This document shows positions 442 to 12,036 of a stretch of 21,665 nt of DNA, one piece after another. The first letter of the stretch is position 1. Each line of letters starts with the position of its first letter. The notes beneath the pieces are model-generated. The model worked only from the letters and a program-made list of their open reading frames with translations, was not told where the DNA came from and did no database searches. The translations under genes were made by a program, and so were the position numbers. This DNA is from a virus. Location: the IMG/VR virus record IMGVR_UViG_3300031707_000210, positions 1-21,665 of that record; one strand, written 5' to 3'.

Positions 442-472
442 AAGGAGAAAAAGGGCTTTACAGCGAGAGATT

Positions 473-503
473 GTGTCCGTGAGGACACCCGTTGAAAAAA
501 CGG
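473..503 (+). other. Two adjacent hairpins after the 87-aa gene
   Basis: GTGTCC (473-478) pairs perfectly with GGACAC (483-488) around a GTGA tetraloop. Directly after it, CCGTT (489-493) pairs with AACGG (499-503) around an A-rich loop. There is no U-run after either, so they are not canonical terminators. They may protect the 3' end of the upstream mRNA or be the first helices of the non-coding RNA. Confidence 0.5.
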
Positions 504-534
504 AAAACCGGGAAAGTGAGCGATGTCTGATCGA

Positions 535-570
535 CAAACAGACAACCATCTGCAAACAGACAACCATCTG
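535..570 (+). repeat. Perfect 18-bp tandem duplication
   Basis: CAAACAGACAACCATCTG occurs twice back to back (535-552 and 553-570) with no mismatch. The second copy runs straight into the TCTGC/GCAGA hairpin (567-582), just before the 3' half of the tRNA-like element. It is non-coding. Identical copies imply a recent duplication or selection on both. Confidence 0.9.
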
Positions 571-583
571 CTGGTATGCAGAG

Positions 584-661
584 CATAAGCGTTAGGTCGA
601 AGGTTCGATCCCTTCCCCCCCCACTTACGGGGGGATAGCTCAGTGGTAGAGCGAACGCCGC
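584..661 (+). tRNA. Candidate circularly permuted tRNA (3' half before 5' half), anticodon probably CAT
   Basis: Bases 589-623 read as the 3' half of a tRNA: anticodon stem GCGTT (589-593), variable loop AGGTC (594-598), T-stem GAAGG/CCTTC, T-loop TTCGATC (604-610, matches TTCRANY), acceptor strand of seven C (616-622) and discriminator A623. After five bases (CTTAC), 629-658 read as the 5' half: acceptor GGGGGGA, TA, D-stem GCTC/GAGC with loop AGTGGTA, G26, anticodon stem AACGC. The halves pair with each other: six G-C acceptor pairs (A7 faces C66) and all five anticodon-stem pairs. No linear partner exists for either half nearby. Joining at the loop gives CGCATAA (anticodon CAT, bases 584-586) or CGCTTAA (anticodon CTT), depending on the junction. 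Both have G where tRNAs have U33. CCA is not encoded. It could be a real permuted tRNA, a tRNA-like regulatory RNA or a relic. Confidence 0.55.
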
Positions 662-840
662 TTAAAGAGCAAGGCTCAAGGTTCAGGCAGTAAGGTTGCA
701 AGGATCAGAATCGGCAAGGAAGTAGGATCAAAGGAAGTAAGGATGGCCTCGAAGCGTAAGCGGAGAGAATGTCCTTGGACAAGTTGCTTTCTCACTTTAT
801 ACTGGAACTTCCAAGGCTTCCTCAGACCCGAAAGGGTCGT

Positions 841-866
841 AGCTGGGAAGGCCCCAACTTTTTCTT
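841..866 (+). terminator. Rho-independent terminator of the left plus-strand unit
   Basis: AGCTGGG (841-847) pairs with CCCAACT (853-859) with one C-A mismatch, and the stem runs directly into TTTTTCTT (859-866). The perfect GACCC-GAAA-GGGTC hairpin (825-838) sits just in front. It closes the unit that contains the 87-aa gene and the tRNA-like element, 23 bases before the next plus-strand gene. Confidence 0.7.
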
Positions 867-3720: not shown

Positions 3721-6700
3721 CTATCTATTTTCAAACCGAATGAATTTTTTCTCAGGTCTTTGTTTCAACGCATTGCGGATCATTTCTGGGGTGATGGAAG
3801 TGACAACACCCTTATATTTTTGGACTTCCAGGTTGTAATCCCTGATCTGTTTGAGAACGTCAGTTCTTTCGCTTCCCTTCGCTATCCTCAATTTAGAGTA
3901 GAGATCGTCACGCTGGTCGTCATAGTGTTGTTTAACGTTCGTAAACGATCTCTTCTCCTTTCCGAGAACCGAGATTCTTTCCGGCCTAAATCCAAAGACC
4001 TGGGTGGCTGTCTCCCCAGGCGTTAAGGTAACTGGTTTTCCTTCCTCATCGAACATGACCTTGCCGGTTGGAGTAGTTGCCCCCTCGGTTGCCATTCGAT
4101 AACCTTTCATCGGAGCTTCAAGGAAGGCAGGCATTAAACTCTCGATGCCACGATAGATGTCTGCCCTTTGGAAACTATCTATGGCCTTTTTCCCCTTGTC
4201 ATACATCCCACCATAAACGCCGTAAACATCCGAGAAACTAACGGTCGGGATGCCTATTTTTAAAGACCCCGTGAGGTCTGCCCCAAGGATCGCCGGAAGT
4301 CCTTCCATCCCGAAACGGGAGAGATATTCTCCACCGATCCCCTTTAAAACTTTTCTCATGTTTGATTTGTATGGAGTCCCGGTCATCCTTTCCATCCCAT
4401 CAAGAAGATCATCGAAGAACGGAATAGCCGCCGTTCCACCAAATATCGTTAGATAGGCCATCGTCCTCCCCATCACATCGAGAGCGATCTTCCCATCCGG
4501 CCCCTTGAGAGATTGCATCATGGAGAGTAAGAAGTTGTGATTGAAACTTCTAAAAGTATAGGCTGTTCTGGCCAACCGGCTACTGGGACTCCCACCCCTG
4601 GCCCAGGCCGGAAGATTCGATTTGCCATAGAGATAATGAGTATTATAAACATAATCCCTGGCGGCATCGAAGGCTTCCTTGTAGGACACATTCTTTTCGT
4701 ATCGCATCACCCGAAACATCGCCAGAGAAGCAGACTCACGATTAAAGACCTCCATCCCTGAGAAAGGCGTTGCGAGAACTTGGCCAATCTGATCGAGTGT
4801 TCCACCAAATTGACTTTTCATTCGGCCACGAATCTCTCTCAAATATTGAGCAGTATCAATTCCTTTCTCGTGCATTTCATGGAGAAACCCTTGCTCTTCT
4901 TTCGAGAGATGGCCTGGATTGAATTTATAGGCGGCAATGTCCTTCATGGACTGGACGTATTTTTTCAGAGGATTCTTTGTAACCCGCCCTAGGAACGGAA
5001 CGCCCGTGACGAAGTTTTGCGAGAAGTTGACCATGGCCGCCTTGATCGAACCGGAAAGATACCAGGTGAATGCCGCCCCTCGAACTTTGCCGGATAGTTT
5101 ATCGAGTCGGTCGGAGTTGCGGAGCATATCCGTGACATAAGATGAACCTTCTTTGAAAAGCTCTGGCTGTTTGGATGGGTCGATCCCTTCAAGGGATTTG
5201 AAGAAATCAAAAGCCGCTCGTTGTTTTGTGAGGAAACCGGAGAGGCCAGTCATGTAATCATAGAAAACCTTCTGGCCATTCTCTGTCTCATAACCTTTAA
5301 TAGTGGCTCCCTCTTCACGCATGATGAAGTGAGAAGCGAATCCACGGGCCTTGAGATCATCGGCCACGGCCTCAAAGAGGGCATCGGTGATATGATCTGC
5401 ATCCTCTGGACTAATCGTTTCTTTTCTCTTTGCCCGGTCGATACCTTTCTTGATGAATTGCTCAAGATGGATGTCGGAGACTTTCTGATACATCTCTTCA
5501 ATGGGTTGAGGTTCAAACTTTGATTCCCATCGCAATCCGGGATATTCTTTCATAAAACGATCTCTGGCCCTGGCCCCACGGATTTGATCGATGGCCCGGA
5601 CGCTTACGACGATCTTATCTTCCTTATCAAAGCCACGGATAACGTAATCTCCCTTTTCCCGAACACGGGGAACATAATAAGACCACCGACCCATGTCGTC
5701 CCGTAGTTCCTTGAGGCGGGAGATTGGTTTTTCGAGCCGATCTGCGGCACGTCCCAGTTCTTTTAATTGAGCATCGGTATATTTTCCGCCGGGCCGAAAA
5801 AGAGTTGGAGACATCTCTTCAAGGATATAATTCTTGAACGTCAATCCTCTTTGTTTGAGTTTCGAGAATTCGGTGTATCCTTTTTTTAGGTCTTCATACC
5901 ATGGTTGATCTTCGTATGGAGCAAAGGTCATTACCTCGTGTTGTTTTTTAACCTTAGCCCAGGCACTATCCATGGTTCGTTTCCAAGCGTAATATGCTGT
6001 AACCTGATCTTCGTTCAATTCTTTTCCAAGAATTTCTTTCGCCTTCGCTTGTAGAGAAACAATGTCCCGGTTAATCTCCCCTTGCTTTCCGATTTTCCCG
6101 AAGAAAACATTTTGGTCATCAGACCAGATCATTACTCTAAACAAATCTTTGGATTGATCTTTCGGCAAGGCGAGGAATTCATGGCCTTCCGTTTTGCTTT
6201 CGGCAAAGGCTTTTTGAACCATCTCGTGATTCATTTGCTCACGAGATTCGTCACGATTTAACTGGACGTCGATCAGTTTTCGGAAGTTACCAAACTTTTG
6301 GCCGATGTGCCAGGGGAGCATATACAACCGTTCAGACACCTTAAGATCGTTGCCCTTGATCCCCAGGTCATATTTGCTTTTGAAATTCTTGATCGAATCC
6401 CACCACGATCCCTCCGTCATTGGATTGTCTCCGAACATAAAGTAGGGTTCGTTCTGCCAATGGCGACCCATCTCTCCGGCCTTTAATTTTGGATTACCTC
6501 CGATCTGATTGCCTACCTGTCTGCGAAGATTTTCGATCTTCGCATTGATCGGATCAACCGGGGAAGAAATTTCTCCCTTCTTCGTTTGTTCTGACGCTTT
6601 GCGGACGAGATTGCGGATGTCATTATCTGTAACTTTTAGATCAGGGAAAACCTTCCTGATCCAATCTTTGACAGTTGCAATCAGGGTTTTAAGAATACCA

Positions 6701-9700
6701 GGATGATCTCCTTTTTGAGCGACTTGAGCGATCTTCTCTTCGGCGGCCTTCCACTTCCCGATATTTGTATCCATGTCGAATCCGTATTTCTTCCCGACGG
6801 CATCAATGTCTTTCGGGAAGTCACGGACGACTCGTTGAAGGAGATCGAAATAAGAATCTCCCATCATCTTTGGGAGTCCATAATGGCCGACGGACTCATG
6901 GAAGATCGCTTCTCTGGCTTCACCAGGATTTTTCAGATTCTCGGCAACGAGATAGACCTTGCCGTCATCACCGAATATACCTTTCGTGCCAGGATAGAGT
7001 TTTTTGCCAGGAGGGAGGTCTCTTTCGGTCGGCACGATCTCAACATCGGGAGCATCCCGCCATTTTACTTTGATGTCAAAGATTGCCTCATTGACATCTT
7101 TCGGAGTCATTCCCTTGGGGCCACGTTGCATCAATTCCGGGGGAATATTTCCTTCTGCCATCTCTCTTGCAAGAACAAAACCCTTTTCTCCGTATGCCAT
7201 CTTCCCGGCCTGGCGAATGAATTCGTCATGGCCGAGTTTTTCATAAGCAGACTGGATTTCTTCAGAAGGGGGCCATGCACCGCCCTCGATCTTCATCCCG
7301 GTGATCGGGACAGGCTCCTCGAACATTGCCTTGGGTTCTTTGCCTAAATCGGGGGTGCGGGAACGATATTCTTCAAACTCTCTTTGAAGCCATTTTGGTA
7401 ACTTAGAAAGTCCTTCGGAGCCATTAAGTGCTTCATCGGTGAAGGTTCTCATCCGATCCATTTTTAGAATAGCGGATACCTTCTTGTTATTCTCTTTTAA
7501 TTCATCCCATTTTTTCTCCTCTGTTAAACGGTCAGAAATGGCATTATGTTCATCCGATATTTTATCAACAAATTGACCAACCGCTTCACGAAGAGGTTTT
7601 GTAGTAGGTTCTATGCGGGGAGGAAGTGGTTCAACTTCAAACGGAATCTTCGCTATCCTTTCCTGGTGTCTATACTCCATTAATGCTTCAAACTTTGTAT
7701 CGTATCTTTCATGGCCCGTCGGCATTCTGTCTTTACGATCAATGGAGGTTGATCTCCATCCACCTTCCGGGTCTTTTGTAATTAAGTAGATGTGATTATC
7801 GGTTTGGAAAATGACTGGTTCGTTGGCCGGGATGGTCTTCTCCCATTCTACGAATGCCTTCTCATACTCTGCGATTTTATTTTCCCCCGCACCTTTGGCC
7901 GCAAAGTATTCTTTTTCTGTTGGTCGTTTTGGAGGTTGGAATCCTAACTCCTCGGTAGGTTTTGGGGCGGGTTCGACGGATACCCTTTCGACAGGGGCTT
8001 TTTCTGGTTCGGGAATTCCTCCGGGTGGTTTTTCTTGTAGCGTCTCATCAATTCGTTCACCACCGATTCGTTGAACTTCGGGCGGGAATAACCCTTTTTG
8101 TTCTGGGGTGACATATTTTTCCTCGATTGTTCTACGAGCCGCTTCTAAAATGTCAATCTTAGAGGGCGGCTTCTGGGCTCCAAAGAGTCCTTTCTGTTTT
8201 GGATTGCCAACGTCATCTACCATTTTAGCATAAGCATCGAGGGTGTCAATGATTTTTCTTGGAGTTCGACTCATGTCATTGAACATCTTCATCAGTTCGG
8301 TCTCGATGGGGTTTTTCCCGAAAAGGTTCCCTTGAAGCAAATACTCCTCTACATTCGTTCCTGCATTTCTCAGATCAGAGATAGTGCGTGCCGCATCCGA
8401 GATTTCTTTTGCAATGGAAAGATCGTGGCGATCTCCTCGCCGTATCGCATCCATCAACACGGTTTGTCTGGGAGCCGCTATGAGAAGGGCATTTGTGATA
8501 TTCTTGATATTGTTCTCAGGGTCTTCCGTCATCATAGTGATGAGGTCTGAATTCTCTTTACCGTATGCTTTGGCGAAAATCGCATTCTTGATTCTGGTAA
8601 GACCTTGAGAGGAGAGCTTTGCTTCTCCACCAATGCCTTCTCCCTTCTCGGTGATAAATTCTCCCATCTCATTGGCCGGAATCTTACCAAGAAAACTTCG
8701 GACGAATTCCCGATTGGAAGCCGCCAGCAAGTTGCCACTCTCGTCCGGGGCAAACACGGAAAGAACATCTGGTGACAACCGATCCATGTCAATCTTTGCT
8801 TTTTCACCTGCGGACATGACCAGGGTTGTCGGAGTGTTCGCATCTCTCGAAAACTCAACCCGCTCCTCCGGCGTCATCGCCGTAGTATTTTCTCGCACGA
8901 GTATCGGGTTTTTGGCACTTGCAACATCTTCTTTGGTGAGTCCGAACCTTTCCGCATTCTGGGTGAGCCATGCTTTGTATTTCTCGCCATTGGGATGGGC
9001 ATCCTCGTAGAGCTTTTTGATTGCGACTGCACGACCATTACCGGATTCGGCCATGTTGTCGGCCCCGACGATGGGAGCCCCGGTATCGGCCCCACGGCTT
9101 TCTCCGAGTTGTTCTGGATCGAGTTTGCTGTAAATCCGCATGATCTGATTCATGGAAGTTACCTTGTCTCGATCCCGTGGTTGTAGTTCTTGATTGTAAT
9201 TCGGGTTGTCCCTGAAATTGGTATCAATAGAAGTAATCACATCATTGGCCTCGACAACCTTGAACCGAGTTTGGGCCTTGATGCCCTTTGGCGTGATTAC
9301 CTCTTCCGGTCTTCCACCAGCCGCAAGTGGCATGGCTGGTTGACCAGGAGCCGGGGTCGGGGCGGGAGCCGGAGTCGGTGGAACGCCAGAAGGGATGAGG
9401 TTGGGAAGTTTCCCCTTAATGTGTGCATCGATCATCTCTCTGGCGGTATCTCTCGATCCAGCAATCCCGATCTTTCCCTCTCCCTCACGATAGACTTCCC
9501 ATCCGGCATCCGTCTTAATATAACCATATCCTTTTTTTGGCTTTGTCAACCCCTCCGGTAATGGAATCGAGGGTTTTTTTGGGACTTTCTCGGTGAAGGT
9601 ATAAGGGTATATCGCACGACCTCCACCGACCTGGGGTTCGATTTCGCCATTGGCATGAAGATAATCAAGAACCTCAGTTCCTTTCCTGGCATTGATCTTA

Positions 9701-12036
9701 TTCCCCATCGCATTAGCAACCCGTTGAATCAAAGCAATACCTAAACCTCCGAGATACTTTCCTTCGGTGCGGATGGCATCCATTTGATCCTGTGGCAGAG
9801 GAGTCTCGGCTGGTAAAGGAGGCTTTTCTGCCGGGGGAGGGGTAACGGCAGGGGGGATCGCTTTCTCGCCCGGCGGAAGGGCTCCTGTGACCGTGGGGGC
9901 TACTTCTGGGGGTGCTCCTCTCACTTCCATGACGATTTGATTAAGGACGACAAATTCCCCACTTGCTCGACCGATAATGTCGTATCCGTTGTCTGCGGCC
10001 CATTTTGCCCTTACCTCTGCCATGTCGGAGACCTTCCCGGCCAGACCGCTTCTCTTGATGAGGTCTTTCTCCATGATAACCTTTGCCCCATCCTTGATCC
10101 CGATCTCCATGACCGTCGGCTTTCCTCCACGGCCTACGGCTTGTTTGCCGTAGGTTTCTGCGAGCGGGCGTGAAGTGGTGAGATAGAAGCCAGGATAATC
10201 TTTATTGCTCGCAAACCTGGCCTCAATGGGTTCTCCAGCCACAATCTTGTTCGCATTGACATCGGAAGTTCCATGATAAAACGCCCCCGGAGCAGGCATT
10301 GAGGGTCTTTCGGTGGGGAGGACACCGGCGGAGGTAATACCCACTTCGGGGGCAATTCTTCCCTTTCCGGTCTCGACCGTGGCCCCTTTAGGGACGATCT
10401 GAGACCGTTTGTAACTTTTATCTCCAAGGATCGGCCTTCCATCGGTCTCCATTCCGACAACCTCTCGGTAAGAGTCCTGGGCGATCCTGGCATAGACTTT
10501 CGGTTGAACCGGCTCCTTCATCCGAAAACCCTCTCCAGGGGTCGTTCCGGCAGGAGGGGGAAAGAAAGGTAATTGGAGAATAGGTTTTTCGAGATCGGGA
10601 AGAAGTAATTGACGCAAAGATGAATAACCGTGTTCTCCTCCCGTGAGTAAATAAGGTTTTCCGTCTGGGCCAACGCCATACCATCGGTCGGCCTTATTGA
10701 CAAGAAGTTGTGGTTCTTCGGTTCTTCCTCCATAAATCGTCCCACCCGATAACGGGCCAGGAGGAACAGGAAGACCCCCTTCTTCTCGGATTGCCGGAGC
10801 ATGAAAAGGACGGATTGCCGGGACTCTTTCTCTTTGACTCTTTAAGAGCCAGGCCATGTAATCTTCGTCGATAGGGATCGGACGTTTTCCTTGGATATGA
10901 AGATCGGCTTCTCGTTTCCACATTTGGGCGACTTCTGGGTCAATCTTTCCCAAATTCGCAAAAACTCGTGATGCCGCTTTCTCCCTGAACTGAGGATCAA
11001 CGGTCTCATTTTTTAAAGAGGCGAAGGTTGCACTCCGATCTTGCCATCTCATCGCTCGTGTTCCGAGACCGAATAAGATCGAAATTCCAATCGAGGGAGC
11101 AATGGAATTGTAAGCGGCCTCTTCCGGTGTTGGGGTTGGAATGCCAGCTTCCTCTGCGGCCCTGGCTTGAAGTGCGGCGGAGGTTGCACCGGCGGCAGTT
11201 ACGAGAGGAACATTCGTCGCCATGCCAGCGAGACTTTGAGTGAGGGTTGGGGTTAGAAGTTTGCGGATCGTATCGATGGCTGGCTTTTTAATAAACTTGC
11301 CTGCGATCCCTCCGGTTACGGCTTCCGCAGGAGCGAGAAGAGACCATACCCCACCTTCGATTGCACCGATCTTGTTCGAGTAGGATTGAGCTTGCTCTTC
11401 CGGCAAACCTTCGGCCAGGGCCTCTTCGTATGCCCGACCCTTTCCGGCAAGGCCGAATGTTCCAAAAACTCCGACCATCCCGCCGAGAATCGCACCCGCA
11501 GTCGGGCCAAGAAAGCCGGTGACGGGGGCAGTTAAGGCTCCAATGGCGGCTCCGCCCTTTGCGGCGGCCAGAATTGTAGGGAGACTCTCGCCCATTCCGG
11601 TTAGAAAACGTCTAAACCCACCCTGGCCCTCAGCTTCCGAAGGTTGAAGGAATGGAATTTTTTCTGGAAGTTCTTCTGCAAATCCGGTGATGGCCTTTCC
11701 AGTTTCTTTCATCGGTTCGATCCCAGTCAAGGCTCCCATGCCAGTGATCGCTTGACCAGCGAATTGAGGAATGCCAACCGCTACGCCACGAGCGAGCGAA
11801 GAAGCGATGTCTCCCAGAACTCCACGTTGCGGAGGCGGAGGAGGCGGAGGAGTGGTTTCAAGGCCCCGGATGTGAGAAAGAAAAGGGTCTTCTGCGGTGG
11901 GTTCAGGAGCGGCTGGTCTCATTAAGGGTTTTGCAAAGGCAACCTGCGGAGGTTCCATTGGGGGTAGAGTTGTTCCCCCTATTGTTCCCCTTCCCAGTTC
12001 CGATTCACGCAGATAATCCAAAAACGGATCAGGCAT
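3721..12036 (-). CDS. Giant polyvalent protein: ART-like, ParB-like, zinc metallopeptidase and LPD-type regions (2771 aa)
   Basis: A single uninterrupted frame. In order: Pro-rich start with a run of seven Pro (about 62-70); Gly/Ala-rich hydrophobic, membrane-active-looking region (about 140-205); ADP-ribosyltransferase-like region (about 580-705) with FYHGTS (H588), GFYLTT (Y618) and EFVVLNQIVME (E694/Q700); Pro-rich linkers; DdrB/ParB-like region (about 915-1310) with QTRFKVVEANDV and the ESGNGR motif (997-1002); a small alpha/beta module (about 1380-1425); zincin-like metallopeptidase with HESVGHYGL (H1713, E1714, H1718) and AAEE (1764-1767) as likely third ligand; long helical C-terminus with the PAWAR..RLARTAYTFRSFNHNF region (about 2475-2500), resembling large polyvalent protein associated domains. 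Polyvalent proteins of phages are thought to enter the host with the DNA and counter defence. The position after virion genes fits. Which activities are live, and any self-processing, is inference. Confidence 0.85.
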   Translation of the reverse strand: MPDPFLDYLRESELGRGTIGGTTLPPMEPPQVAFAKPLMRPAAPEPTAEDPFLSHIRGLETTPPPPPPPQRGVLGDIASSLARGVAVGIPQFAGQAITGMGALTGIEPMKETGKAITGFAEELPEKIPFLQPSEAEGQGGFRRFLTGMGESLPTILAAAKGGAAIGALTAPVTGFLGPTAGAILGGMVGVFGTFGLAGKGRAYEEALAEGLPEEQAQSYSNKIGAIEGGVWSLLAPAEAVTGGIAGKFIKKPAIDTIRKLLTPTLTQSLAGMATNVPLVTAAGATSAALQARAAEEAGIPTPTPEEAAYNSIAPSIGISILFGLGTRAMRWQDRSATFASLKNETVDPQFREKAASRVFANLGKIDPEVAQMWKREADLHIQGKRPIPIDEDYMAWLLKSQRERVPAIRPFHAPAIREEGGLPVPPGPLSGGTIYGGRTEEPQLLVNKADRWYGVGPDGKPYLLTGGEHGYSSLRQLLLPDLEKPILQLPFFPPPAGTTPGEGFRMKEPVQPKVYARIAQDSYREVVGMETDGRPILGDKSYKRSQIVPKGATVETGKGRIAPEVGITSAGVLPTERPSMPAPGAFYHGTSDVNANKIVAGEPIEARFASNKDYPGFYLTTSRPLAETYGKQAVGRGGKPTVMEIGIKDGAKVIMEKDLIKRSGLAGKVSDMAEVRAKWAADNGYDIIGRASGEFVVLNQIVMEVRGAPPEVAPTVTGALPPGEKAIPPAVTPPPAEKPPLPAETPLPQDQMDAIRTEGKYLGGLGIALIQRVANAMGNKINARKGTEVLDYLHANGEIEPQVGGGRAIYPYTFTEKVPKKPSIPLPEGLTKPKKGYGYIKTDAGWEVYREGEGKIGIAGSRDTAREMIDAHIKGKLPNLIPSGVPPTPAPAPTPAPGQPAMPLAAGGRPEEVITPKGIKAQTRFKVVEANDVITSIDTNFRDNPNYNQELQPRDRDKVTSMNQIMRIYSKLDPEQLGESRGADTGAPIVGADNMAESGNGRAVAIKKLYEDAHPNGEKYKAWLTQNAERFGLTKEDVASAKNPILVRENTTAMTPEERVEFSRDANTPTTLVMSAGEKAKIDMDRLSPDVLSVFAPDESGNLLAASNREFVRSFLGKIPANEMGEFITEKGEGIGGEAKLSSQGLTRIKNAIFAKAYGKENSDLITMMTEDPENNIKNITNALLIAAPRQTVLMDAIRRGDRHDLSIAKEISDAARTISDLRNAGTNVEEYLLQGNLFGKNPIETELMKMFNDMSRTPRKIIDTLDAYAKMVDDVGNPKQKGLFGAQKPPSKIDILEAARRTIEEKYVTPEQKGLFPPEVQRIGGERIDETLQEKPPGGIPEPEKAPVERVSVEPAPKPTEELGFQPPKRPTEKEYFAAKGAGENKIAEYEKAFVEWEKTIPANEPVIFQTDNHIYLITKDPEGGWRSTSIDRKDRMPTGHERYDTKFEALMEYRHQERIAKIPFEVEPLPPRIEPTTKPLREAVGQFVDKISDEHNAISDRLTEEKKWDELKENNKKVSAILKMDRMRTFTDEALNGSEGLSKLPKWLQREFEEYRSRTPDLGKEPKAMFEEPVPITGMKIEGGAWPPSEEIQSAYEKLGHDEFIRQAGKMAYGEKGFVLAREMAEGNIPPELMQRGPKGMTPKDVNEAIFDIKVKWRDAPDVEIVPTERDLPPGKKLYPGTKGIFGDDGKVYLVAENLKNPGEAREAIFHESVGHYGLPKMMGDSYFDLLQRVVRDFPKDIDAVGKKYGFDMDTNIGKWKAAEEKIAQVAQKGDHPGILKTLIATVKDWIRKVFPDLKVTDNDIRNLVRKASEQTKKGEISSPVDPINAKIENLRRQVGNQIGGNPKLKAGEMGRHWQNEPYFMFGDNPMTEGSWWDSIKNFKSKYDLGIKGNDLKVSERLYMLPWHIGQKFGNFRKLIDVQLNRDESREQMNHEMVQKAFAESKTEGHEFLALPKDQSKDLFRVMIWSDDQNVFFGKIGKQGEINRDIVSLQAKAKEILGKELNEDQVTAYYAWKRTMDSAWAKVKKQHEVMTFAPYEDQPWYEDLKKGYTEFSKLKQRGLTFKNYILEEMSPTLFRPGGKYTDAQLKELGRAADRLEKPISRLKELRDDMGRWSYYVPRVREKGDYVIRGFDKEDKIVVSVRAIDQIRGARARDRFMKEYPGLRWESKFEPQPIEEMYQKVSDIHLEQFIKKGIDRAKRKETISPEDADHITDALFEAVADDLKARGFASHFIMREEGATIKGYETENGQKVFYDYMTGLSGFLTKQRAAFDFFKSLEGIDPSKQPELFKEGSSYVTDMLRNSDRLDKLSGKVRGAAFTWYLSGSIKAAMVNFSQNFVTGVPFLGRVTKNPLKKYVQSMKDIAAYKFNPGHLSKEEQGFLHEMHEKGIDTAQYLREIRGRMKSQFGGTLDQIGQVLATPFSGMEVFNRESASLAMFRVMRYEKNVSYKEAFDAARDYVYNTHYLYGKSNLPAWARGGSPSSRLARTAYTFRSFNHNFLLSMMQSLKGPDGKIALDVMGRTMAYLTIFGGTAAIPFFDDLLDGMERMTGTPYKSNMRKVLKGIGGEYLSRFGMEGLPAILGADLTGSLKIGIPTVSFSDVYGVYGGMYDKGKKAIDSFQRADIYRGIESLMPAFLEAPMKGYRMATEGATTPTGKVMFDEEGKPVTLTPGETATQVFGFRPERISVLGKEKRSFTNVKQHYDDQRDDLYSKLRIAKGSERTDVLKQIRDYNLEVQKYKGVVTSITPEMIRNALKQRPEKKFIRFENR

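Follow-up and report, generated by a model that had tools for sequence, protein, structure and literature searches.

A permuted tRNA-like module in a long conserved phage RNA: probable tRNA mimic of the Y RNA kind

The window (21,665 nt of viral DNA, positions 1-21,665 of the IMG/VR record IMGVR_UViG_3300031707_000210) carries at 589-658 the two halves of a tRNA-like fold in inverted order, the 3' half preceding the 5' half. Is this the gene of a circularly permuted tRNA, as proposed in an earlier note on this DNA, the relic of ordinary tRNA genes, or part of an RNA that imitates a tRNA? The anatomy of the module, its behaviour in controls, the RNA in which it is embedded and its relatives in other phages are considered in turn.

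Anatomy of the module and its relative in L002

The features of the locus are given in Table 1. In a position-by-position parse, the limits proposed for both halves and for the five-base spacer are right to the base. The halves pair with each other as claimed: the acceptor stem has six G-C pairs, A7 and C66 being unpaired in the window, and the anticodon stem holds 5/5 pairs. The conserved T-loop, variable loop, D-loop and TA are likewise present, and the contacts of a tRNA elbow (G18-U55, G19-C56, U8-A14, G15-C48) are possible. The loop that caps the acceptor stem is ACTTAT in L002 and comprises 3-9 nt in other phage copies. The name 'circularly permuted tRNA-like gene' is apt for the anatomy, a rotated fold; it does not hold for a spliced, decoding tRNA.

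L002: viral contig of 67,491 bp, its ends bearing a direct repeat of 127 bp, apparently a complete phage, whose amidase is 72% identical to that of the window. The RNA is about 91% identical between the window and L002 over 605-814, versus 72-74% for neighbouring DNA. Conservation in related phages, by which the earlier note proposed to judge the module, is found here: the rotated fold is kept in L002, where A7/C66 is replaced by a G-C pair, an A-U pair of the T-stem by G-U, and the D-loop varies in length. Changes that keep the structure in this way would be expected of a mimic, for which the elbow matters and decoding does not.

Table 1. Features of the conserved RNA, its tRNA-like module and the adjoining ORF, sorted by first position
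Feature	Positions	Strand	Basis or remark
Probable extent of the conserved RNA	450..857	+	Alignments with L002, consensus fold
Possible outermost stem, 453-459/848-854, GGGCTTT/AAGGCCC (L002: GGGCCTT/AAGGCCC)	within 450..857	+	
Closing helix, 513-520/791-798 (AAAGTGAG/CTCACTTT)	513..798	+	Eight pairs in both phages
Outer basal stem, 521-524/710-713 and 526-532/703-709, CGAT-TCTGATC/GATCAGA-ATCG	521..713	+	Two-sequence consensus fold
18-nt tandem duplication (AAACAGACAACCATCTGC twice)	536..571	+	Absent from L002
Inner basal stem, 543-547/694-698 (CAACC/GGTTG) and 550-553/687-690 (CTGC/GCAG), leading to the module	543..698	+	Two-sequence consensus fold
YrlA (RF02553) match, full-length, sub-threshold	580..681	+	31.8 bits, E 4.4e-5; gathering score 69
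Module, first half: anticodon-stem 3' strand GCGTT 589-593; variable loop AGGTC 594-598; T-arm GAAGG-TTCGATC-CCTTC 599-615; 3' acceptor CCCCCCC 616-622; A623	589..623	+	Conserved in L002
Linker CTTAC, forming with A623 the loop that caps the acceptor stem	624..628	+	
Module, second half: 5' acceptor GGGGGGA 629-635; TA 636-637; D-arm GCTC-AGTGGTA-GAGC 638-652; G653; anticodon-stem 5' strand AACGC 654-658	629..658	+	R1 model (see text) covers 589-658
3' side hairpin, closing stem 739-745/770-776	739..776	+	Compensatory change
113-aa ORF, neighbour of the RNA here and in L002	889..1230	+	No PHROG; Pfam match weak, sub-threshold

Controls against chance and ordinary tRNA genes

No tRNA gene is detected in the window by ARAGORN. 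The best linear 7-nt acceptor partners of the halves in the window pair at only 2/7 positions upstream and 3/7 downstream, which bears out the statement that neither half has a linear partner; the L002 module is likewise without one. The combined T-arm-to-D-arm pattern occurs once in the window, with 0 matches in 100 shuffles.

Tandem phage tRNAs yield the same order of a T-arm followed by a D-arm; such sites were therefore gathered as a control (147 distinct sites from viral contigs). Half-swap control: the 3' half from one tandem site is joined artificially to the 5' half from another. An acceptor stem of at least six pairs together with a full anticodon stem is reached by just 0.2% of the 21,462 swapped half-pairs. 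R1: permutation-aware covariance model of the rotated fold, built from 17 other phage sites, the window and L002 being left out. In this search, of the kind recommended in the earlier note, the window scores 71.9 bits (E 2.9e-20) and L002 66.8 bits; the best tandem-tRNA junction in the control loci scores 64.1 bits, below the window. The strong acceptor covariation is partly built in, since the R1 sites were picked largely by acceptor pairing. The inner anticodon-stem columns 4/72 and 5/71 are paired in 19/19 and 18/19 cases, with 12 and 7 double changes; their pairing was a softer criterion, yet one also used in ranking the first sites.

A remnant of two neighbouring tRNA genes, of which a deletion would have fused a 3' half to the 5' half that follows, would show the observed order, as tandem phage tRNAs do, some of them with similar scores. 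Such an origin is extremely improbable: the acceptor and anticodon strands are mutually complementary, as so few swapped pairs are, and the arrangement is kept in L002, with G-C in place of A7-C66, amid neighbouring DNA that is far less conserved.

Two other candidates were set aside. tmRNA: the T-arm match to cyano_tmRNA is weak (15.4 bits), and the D-arm of the module is canonical. Remnant of a prophage attachment site: it would not put the 5' half downstream of the 3' half.

The larger conserved RNA

The module appears to belong to a larger, strongly conserved non-coding RNA, as judged from alignment and predicted folding; the long form is compared in two sequences only, the window and L002. 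The consensus-fold energy of 450-857 in these two is -90.4, versus -70.0 (SD 5.7) for column shuffles (z -3.6), and none of 200 column-shuffled controls is as low. In the consensus fold, the energy of the four-arm cloverleaf equals the optimum. The module is located at the tip, within the nested helices 543-553/687-698, 521-532/703-713 and 513-520/791-798. The support differs among the parts. The hairpin at 739-776 shows a true compensatory change of A-U to U-A (AAGGATG/TGTCCTT to AAGGTTG/TGACCTT). The strands of the inner basal stem are identical in L002 and show no covariation. The energy of the outer basal helix alone is reached in 44/200 shuffles of the window, which is not significant, and this stem has an alternative pairing with 683-689. 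L002 folded singly gives z -0.86. Most of the inserts by which the two phages differ are hairpins. The 18-nt duplication doubles one strand of a basal helix.

Structured RNA conserved on both sides of permuted halves would suit a permuted group I or II intron (PIE-like), with the tRNA halves as exons and a circular tRNA as product. This is scarcely credible here: Rfam gives no group I or II match with E values of up to 10 admitted (its models do not allow for permutation), no base pattern is conserved at the putative 3' splice site and catalytic core motifs were not seen.

Further long-form relatives were sought in viral and genome contigs by exact conserved patterns, which gave only L002 or chance matches. 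The RNA was seen in none of the 12 further contigs to which protein-based searches led; the majority are short pieces and possibly do not reach its position. A third contig, L003, keeps the amidase, and the RNA is not there. No match to the RNA is found in isolated phages. In L002, a linear tRNA-Asn (L002:11632-11703, minus strand), absent from the window, directly follows the RNA. A 2771-aa ORF in the structural gene block of the window (3721-12036, minus strand) has about 80% DNA identity to the gene of a 2497-aa protein of L002.

Decoding tRNA or Y RNA-like mimic

From a genuine circularly permuted tRNA gene, a decoding tRNA with anticodon CAT or CTT would arise once the anticodon loop of the precursor had been closed and RNase P and RNase Z had cut at the acceptor. 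In its favour are the cloverleaf, complete though permuted and canonical in its T- and D-loops, and the precedents in algae and archaea, which the earlier note also named: in the permuted tRNA genes of algae, nucleomorphs and Thermofilum, too, the 3' half precedes the 5' half (PMC3978253). These known genes depend on bulge-helix-bulge splicing, which leads to functional tRNAs, whereas the decoding features are not kept here. G33, already remarked on as an oddity, is real and present in both the window and L002. Bulge-helix-bulge splicing is not known from bacteria. Where the anticodon would have to come from, before AAGCGTT, the window has AGCAT and L002 has GCC. No RtcB ligase is found in the window record or in the 67-kb L002. 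G33, the unconserved anticodon region and the capped acceptor argue against a decoding tRNA. The A7/C66 mismatch also counts against it, a permuted tRNA gene would leave the long conserved flanks unexplained, and the RNA family matched by the module is one that is used without splicing. A decoding permuted tRNA is thus very unlikely. The need for splicing to close the anticodon loop, or for a tRNA that works nicked, the two alternatives in the earlier note, would fall away with a module of the Y RNA type, which works unspliced.

That family is YrlA, the only good match among the Rfam families. YrlA: Y RNA of bacteria, 90-150 nt long, whose ends build a large stem and which imitates, in one domain, the D-arm, T-arm and acceptor of tRNA; it tethers Rsr, the Ro60 ortholog, to PNPase (PMC8394870). 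A role of the tRNA-like domain as a decoy against a tRNA nuclease has been suggested (PMC7790460). The YrlA score alone proves nothing, because ordinary tandem tRNAs reach 36-41 bits against the same model; nor does a sub-threshold score rule out membership, because phage copies adjoining Ro60 genes score 27-42 bits (two measured, G007 and G008), also under the cut-off. The likeness lies in the shared order of T-arm, capped acceptor and D-arm, in the elbow positions, which are kept, in a full-length Rfam alignment and possibly in a stem made by the flanks, which in the window is predicted from the consensus fold and has strands invariant between both sequences. The differences are the length of the window RNA (about 190-400 nt, from the conserved region and the nested helices), its additional conserved 3' domain, the lack of Ro60 in the window and L002 and the score under the Rfam cut-off. 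No Ro-binding motif is recognisable by eye in the window RNA. The module looks like a tRNA mimic of the Y RNA kind, not like a tRNA that requires splicing. Permuted tRNA-like modules in phages are not new, contrary to the impression in the earlier note that no phage example was established: Y RNAs are reported from mycobacteriophages in a passage of PMC12282133 that cites Chen 2014, and further phage copies were found here.

Genes for TROVE, vWA_Ro60 and DUF2828 proteins are absent from the window and L002, and no Ro60-like domain was found by Pfam in ten L002 proteins, mostly non-structural. The RNA is a Ro60 orphan as far as phage-encoded partners go. In the same Ro60-less phage, a MoxR-like AAA ATPase (G001, the contig of L002, 65181-67045, minus strand) lies beside a protein with a weak DUF7192 match. 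Elsewhere the same module adjoins TROVE/Ro60 genes: in L072 (171 nt away from the stretch that matches TROVE), in L085 and in Xanthomonas phage Olaya, where an unannotated YrlA-like module (L170:2496-2567) directly precedes a 'hypothetical protein' with TROVE and vWA_Ro60 domains. These copies share with the window the module itself, a capped acceptor and acceptor sequences that are diverse yet pair; they differ in that their RNAs are shorter and the protein partner is encoded nearby.

Unannotated permuted modules are also found in Sinorhizobium phage phiM12 (L169:2534-2602), L168, L173 and L093 (L093:298-366), with a 21-bp basal stem measured in those of L169 and L093. Downstream of the module, phiM12 has a gene for a DUF2828/DUF7788 (vWA) protein at about 1.3 kb, and the L093 contig one for a DUF2828 protein at about 0.7 kb. 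DUF2828 may be an alternative Ro60-like partner; its homology to TROVE is only suggested, because BLASTP finds no similarity between the DUF2828 protein and a TROVE protein. Other permuted modules lie in or near phage tRNA arrays (L034:592-663, L115:9220-9287, L043:1773-1845, L069:8908-8977, L127:1681-1753); no TROVE gene is detected in these five contigs, and that of L034 encodes a DUF2828 protein far from the module. In Microbacterium phage BAjuniper (L171:2433-2574), annotated genes for tRNA-Pro and tRNA-Asn flank two unannotated permuted modules in head-to-tail order.

The site is probably the part that mimics tRNA within a non-coding phage RNA of the Y RNA (YrlA) kind, made as one unspliced transcript. 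The window RNA is best read as a Ro60-orphan, unusually long Y RNA-like tRNA mimic, a variant of the YrlA type. We infer expression, partner proteins and a benefit to the phage as follows. The RNA would be transcribed in one piece and used without splicing. Stacking of the T-arm, capped acceptor stem and D-arm would build a tRNA elbow, while the 'anticodon stem' would continue into the basal stem built from the flanks. By analogy with YrlA, the module might engage PNPase, tRNA-modifying enzymes or, as a decoy, a tRNA-targeting nuclease, and the basal stem and extra 3' domain might bind a protein. As no Ro60 gene was detected in either the window or the apparently complete L002, a host Ro60 or some other protein would serve as the partner.

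A large structured RNA specific to phages, functionally unrelated to Ro60 and with the tRNA-like tip as a decoy or handle, for example against tRNA-cleaving defence nucleases or for tRNA-modifying enzymes, is a possible but less favoured reading. It overlaps the Y RNA-like mimic preferred here, which leaves the partner open. The length beyond that of YrlA, the conserved 3' domain, the lack of a Ro60-like gene in L002 and the decoy role suggested for YrlA speak for it; its partner is conjectural, and a host Ro60 is possible. Tentatively, the RNA may represent a new class of large phage RNA, a Y RNA-style mimic without Ro60 that might, for example, recruit an enzyme which processes or targets tRNA during infection, or serve as its decoy. 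It resembles the GOLLD- and ROOL-type phage RNAs in being large and structured and, in L002, in lying directly beside a tRNA gene; it differs in that neither family is matched in an Rfam search of the window.

The claim of a permuted tRNA becomes testable in this form: phages carry Y RNA-like tRNA mimics, several of them with no Ro60 gene detected in the same record. These mimics are missed by standard tRNA finders, and the Rfam cut-off for YrlA excludes even copies adjacent to Ro60. Their binding partners would tell whether phage tRNA mimicry redirects RNA decay or evades tRNA-based defences.
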